DNA of 64,000 nt, taken from positions 1 through 64,000 of the forward strand of contig CALGMR010000008.1 in assembly GCA_937958815.1 (NCBI GenBank), in the 5' to 3' direction. Made by a program: the position numbers and the translations under genes. The notes below the pieces were generated by a model. It did no database searches and had not been told where the DNA came from. It saw only the letters and a list, made by a program, of their open reading frames with translations. Below are positions 15,151 through 19,536 of this stretch, piece after piece (the first letter of the stretch is position 1; each line of letters begins with the position of its first letter). Source of the DNA: an uncultured Rhizobiaceae group bacterium. GTDB lineage: Bacteria; Pseudomonadota; Alphaproteobacteria; Rhizobiales; Rhizobiaceae.

Positions 15151-18030
15151 ATGGTGTGCAAAAACGCACTTGTTATAGACTGGCCATGGGCTATCGTCTT
15201 TCTTAGTAAGCGACAGGTCTGTTCTAAGTGCCACGCACAAAGTGTTTTGGGGTATGAATTGCAAAAAGACAGCACACTAGCTGATGCCAACAGGCCTTTA
15301 GATCGTAACTTGCTGCGATATGTTTGGCGCCATACACGGGCAGAGCAAATCTGGATTCTGTGCGTTATTATTGCGTCAATGCCCACTTATTTTCTTGTGC
15401 TGGACCTTCCCGTGCGCATCATCAACCAACCCATTCAGGGGGATGGTTTTGAAGTGGTTGGCGCCACGCAAGAGTTTTTGAATATTTCGTTTTCATTGCC
15501 AGAATTTTTGGGCGGTGGTGAATTTGTCATTTTCCAAGGCTTTGAGTTGGAACGTTGGCCATATTTGATTGCCTTGAGTTCACTCTTCCTTGGTCTCGTT
15601 TGCATCAATGGCCTGTTTAAATTTTACATCAACACCTACAAAGGCCGGTTGGGAGAGCGGATGTTGCGCCGTATGCGCTACCAATTAACCGACCGTGTTT
15701 TGCGCTTCCCTATTCGCCATTTCAAGCGGGTGAAGGGATCGGAAATTGCCTCAATGGTGAAAGACGAAGTTGAACCTTTTGGCGAGTTTATTGGTGATGC
15801 ATTCGTACAGCCTGTTTATCTGGGTGGGCAGGCTTTGGTGGCCTTCATTTTTATTCTCAACCAGAGTTTCTGGCTCGGGATGATTGCCGTTGCCATCATC
15901 GCCATCCAAGTGACACTCATTCCATATTTGCGACGACGTGTTCTTGAACTTGGTCGCATGCGTCAACTGACGGCACGATTGCTGTCCGGTCGTATAGGCG
16001 AGATTGTTGATGGCATATCGTCTATTCACGTGAACGACACTTCTAACTACGAACGAGCAGAACTTTCCAGCCGTTTGAGCAAAATTTTCTTCATTCGTTA
16101 TGAGTTGTATCAGCGGAAATTCTTTATCAAATTCATCAACAACTTCTTGGCTCAACTCACACCGTTTTTGTTTTATGTGGTGGGTGGGTATTTTGCGATA
16201 CGCGGCACATTGAATGTTGGCCAATTGATTGGTGTCATCAATGCCTACAAAGACCTTCCATCGCCTATCAACGGCCTGATCATGTGGGATCAAAAGCGCG
16301 TCGATATCAACATCAAATATGCTCAGATTGTTGAACAGTTTAATGTCAAAGACATTGCTGATGCAGAATTGCAGCAGCACAGCGATGATCCTGTAGAGCC
16401 GCTCAGTGGAGAAATTACAGTCAACAATTTGAATGTGGTCGATGATACCGGAACGGCTCTGGTTGAAGATGCTGATTTCACAATTCAAGTGAATGAGATT
16501 GCCTGCGCCATTGGCCCACTTGGTTCAGGTGCGGGTGCCACAGCGGACACTTTGGCTGGATTGATCAACCCAACTTCGGGCCGCGTTTTGTTGAATGGTC
16601 GTCAGCTCACCGAGCTTCCACAACGCATTCGAGGCAGACGTTTTTCTTATTGCGGCAGTGATGCCTACCTACCTCAGTCAACTCTTTTGGACACGCTGCT
16701 TTATGTAAACAAACACGCGCCTTTGCGAGAAACAGACGGCTCTAATATTCCTGAAAAATTGCATCCAAAGACACGAGCGGAAGCGAGAGCGTCCGGAAAC
16801 ACATTGCTGAGTTATTACTCAGATTGGGTTGACTATGAAGCCATGGGTATTTCTGGCCCTGAAGAGATCTACGAGAAAGTTCGTGACGTTCTGGACGTGG
16901 TTGAAATGGGGGAAACCGTTTATCAACTCGCCATGCGTCAGGAATTAGACCCAAAACAGCACCCAGAACTCACGGACAAGCTCGTTGAAATGCGCAAAGT
17001 GTTGCGAGAACATATTGACGGGTCTGAGATTAGCAATCTTGTCGAGGTATGGGATTGGGACGGGTACAATGAACACGCCACGATTGCTGAAAATCTTCTG
17101 TTTGGTACGGCAGTTGAAACAGATGATGTGCAATCAAGCCAACTTGTCGAGAACGAATATCTTCGTTCCATTCTCAAGAAGGACGGATTGGATGAAGCTA
17201 TGTTCGACATGGGGGTGGAACTTGCCGAGACCGCGATTGAACTCTTTGCCGATTTGTCTCCGGGCAACCCGTTTTTTGAACAGTTGAATTTCATGAGCCC
17301 CGAGCAACTTGAGTTGTATGGACCTATTGTTGCCCGTGCCAAGGAATCTGGTTTTGTGGGCGTCAATGAATCAGATCGCCGAATGTTGCTCCGGCTGCCA
17401 TTTGACTATGTTGAGCCGCGCAATCGCCTGCGACTTCTCGACCAAGAATTGCAGGACAAGATTCTCCAAGCCCGCCACAGCTTCCATGAAAACTTGCCGG
17501 AAGAGATGCAAAACTCGATCTCTGTTTACAACTTGGACACTTACAATCCTCACAACTCGGTGCAGGACAATATCTTGTTTGGGCGTGTTGCTTACGGCTC
17601 GTCAAATGGGCCTGAAAAAGTCCAAGCATTGATCAAAGCATTGCTGCGCAAAAATGGTATGGATGATGATCTATTTAGAGCTGGCCTTAATTTTGATATT
17701 GGCACGGGTGGCAAGCGACTTTCCGAGGCCCAAAGACAGCGTCTTATTCTAGCACGCGCACTTTTGAAAAGAGCTGATCTGATGGTTGTAAATCGAGGCT
17801 TGAATGCCTTGGATGCAAAATCTCAAGAAGTGCTGATCAAGCGGGTGATTGAGCGCGCGCGTGGGGAAAATGGAACCAAACCTTTCGGTATCTTCTGGGT
17901 GCTCACATCGCCCAGAATGGCAAGCGAATTTGATCAGGTTTTTGTTTTCCAAAGACAACGACTTACTGCCAAAGGGCATGCAAGTTTGCTGGAAGATACC
18001 GACGATTTTTATAAGCAATTGGTGGCATGA
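15151..18030 (+). CDS. Fused ABC transporter (membrane domain plus degenerate ATPase domain with large insertion)
   Basis: 959 aa track ORF; TM domain, then GPLGSGAGATADTLAGL in place of Walker A, signature LSEAQRQRLILARALLKRADLMVVNRGLNALD. Exact start uncertain, possibly downstream of 15151. Confidence 0.82.
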   Translation: MVCKNALVIDWPWAIVFLSKRQVCSKCHAQSVLGYELQKDSTLADANRPLDRNLLRYVWRHTRAEQIWILCVIIASMPTYFLVLDLPVRIINQPIQGDGFEVVGATQEFLNISFSLPEFLGGGEFVIFQGFELERWPYLIALSSLFLGLVCINGLFKFYINTYKGRLGERMLRRMRYQLTDRVLRFPIRHFKRVKGSEIASMVKDEVEPFGEFIGDAFVQPVYLGGQALVAFIFILNQSFWLGMIAVAIIAIQVTLIPYLRRRVLELGRMRQLTARLLSGRIGEIVDGISSIHVNDTSNYERAELSSRLSKIFFIRYELYQRKFFIKFINNFLAQLTPFLFYVVGGYFAIRGTLNVGQLIGVINAYKDLPSPINGLIMWDQKRVDINIKYAQIVEQFNVKDIADAELQQHSDDPVEPLSGEITVNNLNVVDDTGTALVEDADFTIQVNEIACAIGPLGSGAGATADTLAGLINPTSGRVLLNGRQLTELPQRIRGRRFSYCGSDAYLPQSTLLDTLLYVNKHAPLRETDGSNIPEKLHPKTRAEARASGNTLLSYYSDWVDYEAMGISGPEEIYEKVRDVLDVVEMGETVYQLAMRQELDPKQHPELTDKLVEMRKVLREHIDGSEISNLVEVWDWDGYNEHATIAENLLFGTAVETDDVQSSQLVENEYLRSILKKDGLDEAMFDMGVELAETAIELFADLSPGNPFFEQLNFMSPEQLELYGPIVARAKESGFVGVNESDRRMLLRLPFDYVEPRNRLRLLDQELQDKILQARHSFHENLPEEMQNSISVYNLDTYNPHNSVQDNILFGRVAYGSSNGPEKVQALIKALLRKNGMDDDLFRAGLNFDIGTGGKRLSEAQRQRLILARALLKRADLMVVNRGLNALDAKSQEVLIKRVIERARGENGTKPFGIFWVLTSPRMASEFDQVFVFQRQRLTAKGHASLLEDTDDFYKQLVA

Positions 18031-18077: not shown

Positions 18078-18554
18078 ATGAGTAAGCTGAAGGATGAAGT
18101 CGATCTTTTACGATCGATACCAATGTTAGCAAACTTGCCAGCCAACAAACTCAAGCTGCTGGCTTTTGCCTCAGATCGTGTCTCGTACGCGCAAGGCGAT
18201 ACGCTGTTTCACCAAGGTGATGATGCTGATGCGGCCTATATTGTAATTTCGGGTTGTGCAGATGTTTTGGTTTCGCCAGATGGCGAGGCCGACCCTACTG
18301 CTGTGGCCCAACTTGGACCAAATTCAGTGATCGGTGATATGGCAATATTATGCGATATTCCAAGAACGGCCACCATTCGTGCCTGCGAAAACTTGGACGC
18401 TTTGAAGATTCATAAAGATCATATGCTGGATATGATGAAAGAAAGCCCCGCACTGGCGTTGGCTGTCTTAAAAGAGATTGTTCAGCGCCTTGCAAAGACA
18501 ACACAAGACCTCTCGGAAGCTCGAGAAGAAGTTGCAAAGTTGCAAGCAGGATGA
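18078..18554 (+). CDS. Cyclic nucleotide-binding domain protein
   Basis: 158 aa; FHQGDDADAAYIVISGCADVLV ... GDMAILCDIPRTATIRA phosphate-binding cassette; no DNA-binding HTH apparent. Confidence 0.88.
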   Translation: MSKLKDEVDLLRSIPMLANLPANKLKLLAFASDRVSYAQGDTLFHQGDDADAAYIVISGCADVLVSPDGEADPTAVAQLGPNSVIGDMAILCDIPRTATIRACENLDALKIHKDHMLDMMKESPALALAVLKEIVQRLAKTTQDLSEAREEVAKLQAG

Positions 18555-18578: not shown

Positions 18579-19442
18579 ATGATTTTGCCTAAACAAAAAT
18601 TCTTCGCAAAGTTTTGGGGTGCTCGTGGCACCATGGCGTCCACATCGGACGACACCAATCGTTATGGTGGCAACACCGCTTGCGTTGAAATAAATTGCGG
18701 CGATGAAACTCTTATCTTTGATGCTGGTTCAGGGCTTCGTTTGCTGGGCGACGACATTATGAAAAGAGCCGTGAAAAATGACAAAAAGGACATTAAGCGC
18801 AAGCGTTTGAATTTGTTTTTTACACACTGTCATTACGATCATATTTCAGGATTCCCATTTTTTGCGCCATTCTTCGACAAAAAGACCAAAATAGACATTT
18901 GGTCAGGACACCTCACAGGCGAAGATAAAACCGAAAGAATGATCTTAAGCTATATGCGCCCCCCATTCTTTCCCGTTGGGCCTGAAGTTTTTGCTGCCAA
19001 ACTTCGCTATAGAGATTTTGAACCCCAAGACCAATTGAAGCCAGCAAAAGGCATCAAAGTGTCTACCCTATCTCTCAATCACCATGATGAGTGCATTGGT
19101 TATCGGGTGGATTTTGACGATCGCAGTATATGCTACATCACAGATACAACCCATATTTTGGGCAGTCCGGACACGCGCATCATTGAGTTCTGCAGAGATA
19201 CCGACTTGATGATCTATGATGGCACTTACACGGATAGTGAGTTCCCGCAATTTGCAAATTTTGGACATTCAACTTGGCAAGAAGGCCAGAGATTGGCGAA
19301 GACAGCTAACGCAAAACGTTATTGCATATTCCACCACCGCCCGAGCCGAACTGACAAAGCGCTCGATAAAATTGAAAAACAAGCAAGAGCGAAGTTTGCG
19401 AAATCTTGGGCTGCCCATGAAGGACTGGTTATAAAGGTATAG
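18579..19442 (+). CDS. Metallo-beta-lactamase-fold hydrolase
   Basis: 287 aa; FWGARGTMASTSDDTNRYGGNTACVEI, HCHYDH metal motif, ITDTTH, FHHRPSRTD. Confidence 0.85.
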   Translation: MILPKQKFFAKFWGARGTMASTSDDTNRYGGNTACVEINCGDETLIFDAGSGLRLLGDDIMKRAVKNDKKDIKRKRLNLFFTHCHYDHISGFPFFAPFFDKKTKIDIWSGHLTGEDKTERMILSYMRPPFFPVGPEVFAAKLRYRDFEPQDQLKPAKGIKVSTLSLNHHDECIGYRVDFDDRSICYITDTTHILGSPDTRIIEFCRDTDLMIYDGTYTDSEFPQFANFGHSTWQEGQRLAKTANAKRYCIFHHRPSRTDKALDKIEKQARAKFAKSWAAHEGLVIKV

Positions 19443-19536
19443 TCACATACTGAACCCAATATCTTGAATGGACTGTGACCCACCAAAAGCACACAATTTA
19501 CAGGCCCATTCTCTCAGAAAGCGATCTACAACTGTA

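Follow-up and report, generated by a model that had tools for sequence, protein, structure and literature searches.

The window, the whole stretch of 64,000 nucleotides of Rhizobiaceae DNA analysed here, contains a gene whose product is a type IV ABC exporter by fold, yet lacks the residues that define an active ABC ATPase. This raises the question of what the protein does with such an ATPase domain (NBD), and whether the missing residues reflect decay of this copy or an older change.

The reading frame and its probable start

15151..18030, +, pseudo-ABC exporter gene; open frame, probable true start TTG 15259

The frame was unbroken over 959 codons, as the original prediction had said, and all of the motifs quoted there were found in place. 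Its gene extent was retained as an open frame, except for the start codon. The ATG at 15151 is doubtful because in a 90% identical relative (L037) the frame does not stay open on the upstream side of residue 22. Both genes have a TTG at the position of residue 37 (15259), preceded by GGGG. Translation therefore probably starts at TTG 15259, giving a product of ~923 aa. Pfam matched ABC_membrane to residues 139-362 (62.9 bits) and ABC_tran in two separate stretches. The NCBIfam exporter models were likewise divided, the N-terminal match ending at about residue 520 and the C-terminal match beginning at about 783. The only database names for the protein are 'ABC transporter ATP-binding protein' and similar ones, which are misleading for this clade.

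Loss of the catalytic motifs

The Walker A of the window protein reads GPLGSGAGATADTLAG (residues 455-470), with Ala461 at the Lys position. The Asp-Glu of Walker B is replaced by NR (881-882), and the H-loop region WVLTSPR (residues 916-922; context FWVLTSPRMA) has no His. The signature-like LSEAQRQR was found at residues 857-864. A total of 107 sequences were aligned, comprising orthologues from family genomes and from named genome contigs. Lys was present at position 461 in none of the 107, the residue there being A, G, T, S, V or L. Asn881 was present in all 105 sequences with data, followed at 882 by Arg, Lys or Gln. The H-loop position was mostly N, A, S, T or D, with His in five of the 107. 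The signature took the form L(S/T)xxQRQK and the LSGGQ glycines were not conserved; the Gln of YLPQST was not fixed, occurring in 64% of the sequences. All four residue sets tested for an active ABC ATPase (Walker A Lys, Walker B Asp/Glu, LSGGQ and H-loop His) were thus lacking. The losses are not due to chance, because position 461 never holds Lys, Asn881 is invariant and 882 is confined to Arg, Lys or Gln.

The absence of the Walker A Lys, the Walker B Asp and catalytic Glu, and the H-loop His had been predicted originally and was confirmed. The accompanying view that signature-like and Q-loop-like motifs remain held only in part: LSEAQRQR is present, but the signature glycines are lost and the Q-loop Gln is not fixed. 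Based on these residues, the window protein is very probably a pseudo-ATPase. It would then have lost ATP binding and hydrolysis, although ATP could still bind without the Lys.

Ancestry of the loss and constraint on the gene

The Lys and Asp/Glu losses were fixed in every Rhizobiales-type orthologue aligned, and the His loss in nearly all. A wider set of 109 non-redundant members divided at the Walker A Lys position into 33 with Lys, 18 with Arg and 58 with neither. In 26 of the 33 Lys-keeping members, Glu or Asp followed the Lys, and only two had Ser there; at the Walker B Asp position, these members usually had Asn or Ser. Because Lys-keeping members have these substitutions at both places, the Mg2+ ligands (Ser/Thr and Asp) appear to have been lost before the Lys. 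The member closest to canonical was L159, with GSGKE, LDEATTALD and LHR. In a tree built from the transmembrane columns only, by a quick method and with a midpoint root for drawing, 50 rows including the window formed a single clade (SH-aLRT 99), none of them with Lys.

Since the Lys persists in the partly eroded sites of sister lineages, the loss of catalytic residues is ancestral in the Rhizobiales-type clade and not decay of the window copy. The original prediction had reasoned that losses fixed among homologues, with the rest conserved, would make the pseudo-ATPase ancestral; the losses proved fixed clade-wide, that of His nearly so, with the rest conserved. It had also named, as evidence to the contrary, orthologues with intact motifs together with accelerated substitution in this copy. 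The first half of this was found in part: distant relatives keep Lys and a few, such as L159, have near-canonical motifs, but they belong to other clades, and the window copy is not the fast-evolving one.

Values of dN/dS were low in all regions of the gene, though these are rough since dS was saturated. Mean identity within the pseudo-ABC family was 64% for the transmembrane domain (TMD), 42% for the NBD core and 37% for the insert described below. For a canonical exporter used as control (30 orthologues, from the same bacterial family as the pseudo-ABC sample), the corresponding values were 61% for the TMD and 78% for the NBD, and all 30 kept GxxGxGK, LSGGQ and DE. The membrane part is thus under the constraint seen in a genuine exporter and the NBD under weaker constraint than normal, the reverse of the usual pattern.

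These data bear on two other explanations. That the gene is decaying in the window lineage would fit the S. meliloti 1021 record, in which the orthologue lies in two frames, and one genome copy with an internal stop. Such decay is hardly credible, as the frame is open here and in nearly all orthologues, dN/dS is low everywhere and the losses are common to the whole clade; the claim that simple decay was unlikely is borne out by intact frames in ~100 orthologues and by the low dN/dS (dS saturated) in every region. The second is an atypical but active ATPase, in which other residues replace Lys, Glu and His. The conserved replacements Asn881 and Arg/Lys/Gln882 would suit it, as would the sister lineages that keep Lys, usually followed by Glu/Asp, a few of which also keep DE and His. 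With residue 461 free among A, G, T, S and V, the signature glycines lost and the NBD relaxed relative to a normal exporter, it is very improbable.

Predicted fold and a triplicated helical unit

15310..16341, +, type IV exporter transmembrane domain (residues ~54-397), assigned from Pfam ABC_membrane, the model and Foldseek
16411..16728, +, pseudo-NBD N-terminal half (residues 421-526) with the degraded Walker A (455-470) and the first Q-loop-like unit
16729..17505, +, insert between Q-loop and signature (~residues 527-785), a tandem repeat of the Q-loop/helical unit, assigned from hhalign and the model
17506..17976, +, pseudo-NBD C-terminal half (residues 786-942) with the third Q-loop-like unit, LSEAQRQR, NR and the His-less H-loop

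The whole chain was modelled with AlphaFold2 from 67 family sequences (pLDDT 82, pTM 0.77). The TMD comprised six long helices, two coupling helices and a periplasmic beta insert at residues 107-133, the latter conserved in the family. Foldseek comparison of the whole chain with MsbA, TM287/288, TmrAB and PCAT1 gave TM scores over the target of ~0.6. The NBD modelled alone (pLDDT 91, pTM 0.85) matched the TAP1 ATPase domain with TM 0.79-0.81 over the target, so that the NBD fold is predicted to be retained despite the lost catalytic residues. With ABC_membrane and exporter topology fused to an NBD, the window protein is a type IV ABC-exporter half by fold. The description of an ABC exporter with a degraded NBD therefore stands; it had overlooked an insert of ~270 residues, carrying a triplicated helical unit, that splits the NBD between Q-loop and signature.

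The repeat was recognised by aligning profiles of the three copies with hhalign. Copies 2 and 3 aligned over 84 columns (E 1e-17) and copies 1 and 3 over 72 columns (E 1e-7); copies 1 and 2 were more weakly related (E 5e-5). All three were modelled as strand-helix-strand, at residues 498-526, 631-654 and 790-813. Ordinary exporters, including those from other classes of the phylum, matched only profile positions ~274-379, equivalent to copy 3 (E ~1e-11), and the full architecture was not seen outside the class in the exporter sample compared.

Two variant forms were also found. Four members (L140, L141, L142 and L190) combine the triplicated NBD with a strongly diverged TMD and have no Walker A Lys. 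Three TMD-only relatives of 404-425 aa without an NBD (L212 4516-5727 +, L213 4543-5817 - and L214 4932-6197 +) come from genomes that also encode the full protein, and no GT (glycosyltransferase) or CNBD gene was found beside them.

A predicted cyclic-nucleotide-binding partner

18078..18554, +, cyclic-nucleotide-binding domain (CNBD) protein, 158 aa; Pfam cNMP_binding PF00027, 71 bits

Directly downstream of the ABC gene, a CNBD gene was present in 102 of the 108 loci. The remaining six comprised four truncated by the end of a contig or locus and two (L034 and L036) that encoded C-terminal CNBD fusions. The CNBD is therefore downstream in all assessable Rhizobiales-type loci and fused in divergent members, with further fusions in L134-L136, L173-L178, L181, L191, L192 and L216-L219. 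In the divergent loci L179, L185, L186 and L190, none was found at the threshold used. Some genomes, such as G142 (L191, L192, L216) and G174, carry two or three divergent fused copies.

In an alignment of 204 rows, the phosphate-binding cassette showed Gly in 203/203, an acidic residue in 199/203 (Glu in 176, Asp in 23) and Arg in 201/203. Both the CNBD fold and the Gly-Glu...Arg cassette were thus found in the partner protein, the window copy having Asp in place of Glu. With its cassette intact, the partner is predicted to bind cAMP or cGMP, and it very likely works together with the pseudo-ABC exporter.

Gene context

18579..19442, +, metallo-beta-lactamase-fold (MBL) hydrolase, RNase Z/ELAC-like; third gene, conserved in most Rhizobiales-type loci
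19468..20877, +, class III nucleotide cyclase with a hydrophobic N-terminal part; Pfam Guanylate_cyc
20874..22595, +, class III cyclase with an SdhC-like membrane anchor and a 2Fe-2S ferredoxin domain; Pfam

In the window, the MBL gene and both class III cyclase genes belong to the same operon as the ABC and CNBD genes. The MBL gene was considered as a possible cyclic-nucleotide phosphodiesterase, and similarity was found only to the RNase Z/ELAC type. The cyclase at 20874-22595 is a candidate redox sensor resembling S. meliloti CyaC, a heme-anchored adenylate cyclase with a six-helix diheme anchor (PMC10463352). The SdhC-like anchor is shared with CyaC, and the window cyclase has the 2Fe-2S domain (Pfam) in addition.

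Among the 73 named loci with a length of 11 kb or more, one of the GT genes was present in 63, the MBL gene in 62 and a cyclase in 55; in the 48 loci from other lineages, the figures were 25, 2 and 7, respectively. GT genes are common and their linkage is incomplete; the GT figures are raw counts. GT28-GT4-GT28 genes lie beside the ABC gene in most lineages. The commonest order was GT28>GT4>GT28>ABC>CNBD>MBL, with GT4, DUF3095, UDP-sugar dehydrogenase and cyclase genes beyond. The GT28>GT4>GT28>ABC>CNBD part was recurrent in Rhizobiales, and in other lineages the GT genes were divergent from the ABC gene. Such clusters occur in R. leguminosarum WSM1325 (RLEG_RS29495-RS29515) and on S. meliloti pSymB; the R. 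leguminosarum orthologue of the ABC protein is WP_012763549.1. The window genome has the same four GTs as a group on another contig (C3), unlinked to the ABC gene; a GGDEF-EAL protein (L242 2756-5167 -) adjoins that cluster.

DUF3095, a family of unknown function, was present in 40 of the 73 named loci (e.g. L072 15249-16448). No published description of it was found, and a relationship to cyclases was without support from hhalign (best probability 15%).

The original prediction captured the pseudo-ATPase at this locus and missed the near-universal CNBD partner, the fusions and the glycosyltransferase context. Together with the helical-unit triplication, these are the most informative facts about the system.

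Comparison with known systems and distribution

In its transmembrane fold, its coupling helices and the core fold of its NBD, the window protein agrees with the type IV exporters MsbA, PCAT1, TM287/288, TmrAB and TAP. It differs in lacking the Walker A Lys, the Walker B Asp/Glu, the glycines of the signature and the His of the H-loop, and in having the ~270-aa helical-unit insert and the CNBD partner.

Catalytic residues are likewise lost from an exporter NBD in the heterodimeric degenerate-site exporters TM287/288, BmrCD, CydDC and IrtAB. The window protein might then be the degenerate half of a heterodimer of the TM287/288 or TmrAB kind, the other half being a transporter with a competent ATPase. 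Exporters with one degenerate NBD are known, and the TMD-only relatives in three genomes could be taken in the same sense. The known degenerate-site heterodimers, however, keep one competent site and ATP binding; their degenerate halves retain the ATP-binding residues, whereas the window protein does not. In known heterodimeric exporter pairs the partner gene is usually adjacent. No conserved intact exporter gene was found near the ABC gene in the neighbourhoods of the loci, and thus no linked competent partner; the ABC genes that do lie nearby are irregular, several being oligopeptide-importer genes. The suggested pairing with another NBD is therefore unsupported, and this explanation is quite improbable.

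A further comparison is with CFTR and SUR (ABCC), in which an exporter scaffold serves as a gate or regulator rather than a classic pump, under second-messenger or nucleotide control. Both are ATP-binding proteins whose control, by phosphorylation or by nucleotides, is exerted at the NBD, whereas in the window system a separate CNBD would mediate the effect of the cyclic nucleotide.

The glycosyltransferase context suggested a possible identity with S. meliloti MsbA2 (SMb21191), whose exporter gene on pSymB adjoins glycosyltransferases (PMC3687685). This was rejected, since the exporter encoded in the msbA2 region is canonical and has 25% identity to the query, over no more than part of its length. 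MsbA2 is a different, ordinary 600-aa exporter at 941-943 kb of pSymB, and the window gene's orthologue lies at ~842-844 kb.

In a sample of 385 genomes of the class, 131 carried the system. It occurs in S. meliloti and R. leguminosarum, and the loss of the ATPase residues extends over a whole group of soil- and plant-associated bacteria. In S. meliloti 1021 (L238, pSymB ~842 kb), the orthologue is split over two frames near residue 187; in strain R14 it is a single open frame, and the 1021 split is a frameshift or sequencing error. One member (L052), nested in the Rhizobiales-type clade, comes from a contig labelled Plasticicumulans lactativorans, a gammaproteobacterium, and represents horizontal transfer or contamination. 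No published description of the pseudo-ABC/CNBD family was found in open-licence papers; subscription papers could have been missed.

Proposed mechanism

We propose, as a reading favoured slightly over its negation, that the protein is an exporter-type pseudo-ATPase whose drive comes from a cyclic-nucleotide sensor and which serves an envelope-glycan pathway. The ATPase function of the exporter half would have been lost in the clade ancestor while the TMD was kept under strong constraint, and the NBD would have become a non-catalytic coupling domain, enlarged through duplication of its helical subdomain. As input, cAMP or cGMP from the cyclases of the same operon would bind the CNBD, whether encoded by the next gene or as a fused domain. 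Outside the Rhizobiales type, most lineages have no linked cyclase (present in 7 of 48 loci), so the ligand may also come from elsewhere. The CNBD would then dock on the pseudo-NBD and shift the TMD between states, in place of ATP. Such gating of a transport or flipping step by cyclic nucleotide is marginally the better bet. Handling of a glycan is suggested by the linked GT genes, and the most likely output would be to move or gate an intermediate of an envelope glycan that the GT28-GT4-GT28(-GT4) enzymes produce; that the substrate is a glycan is evenly balanced.

A different role for the same parts would be that of a regulatory scaffold or receptor, in which a ligand in the membrane or periplasm is recognised by the TMD, which together with the CNBD protein controls glycosyltransferases or other envelope enzymes. 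The dead ATPase, the very conserved TMD, its conserved periplasmic beta insert and the tight CNBD linkage are all compatible with this role. The TMD, however, retains complete exporter topology and both coupling helices, and NBD and TMD are joined in one chain in all full-architecture members, so the scaffold role is possible but unlikely.

If cyclic-nucleotide-driven transport is the correct reading, the erosion can be traced in living relatives, from the near-canonical L159, through members in which the Mg2+ ligands are replaced and the Lys kept, to those in which the Lys is lost. Tentatively, the family may form a transporter or gate class of its own, with an ABC-exporter fold, a cyclic-nucleotide sensor replacing the ATP drive, a helical duplication in the NBD, a recruited CNBD and a role in a conserved alphaproteobacterial glycan pathway. 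The findings point to an undescribed, widespread system, and, if the reading is right, to an ABC-exporter scaffold that has been rewired from ATP hydrolysis to second-messenger control.
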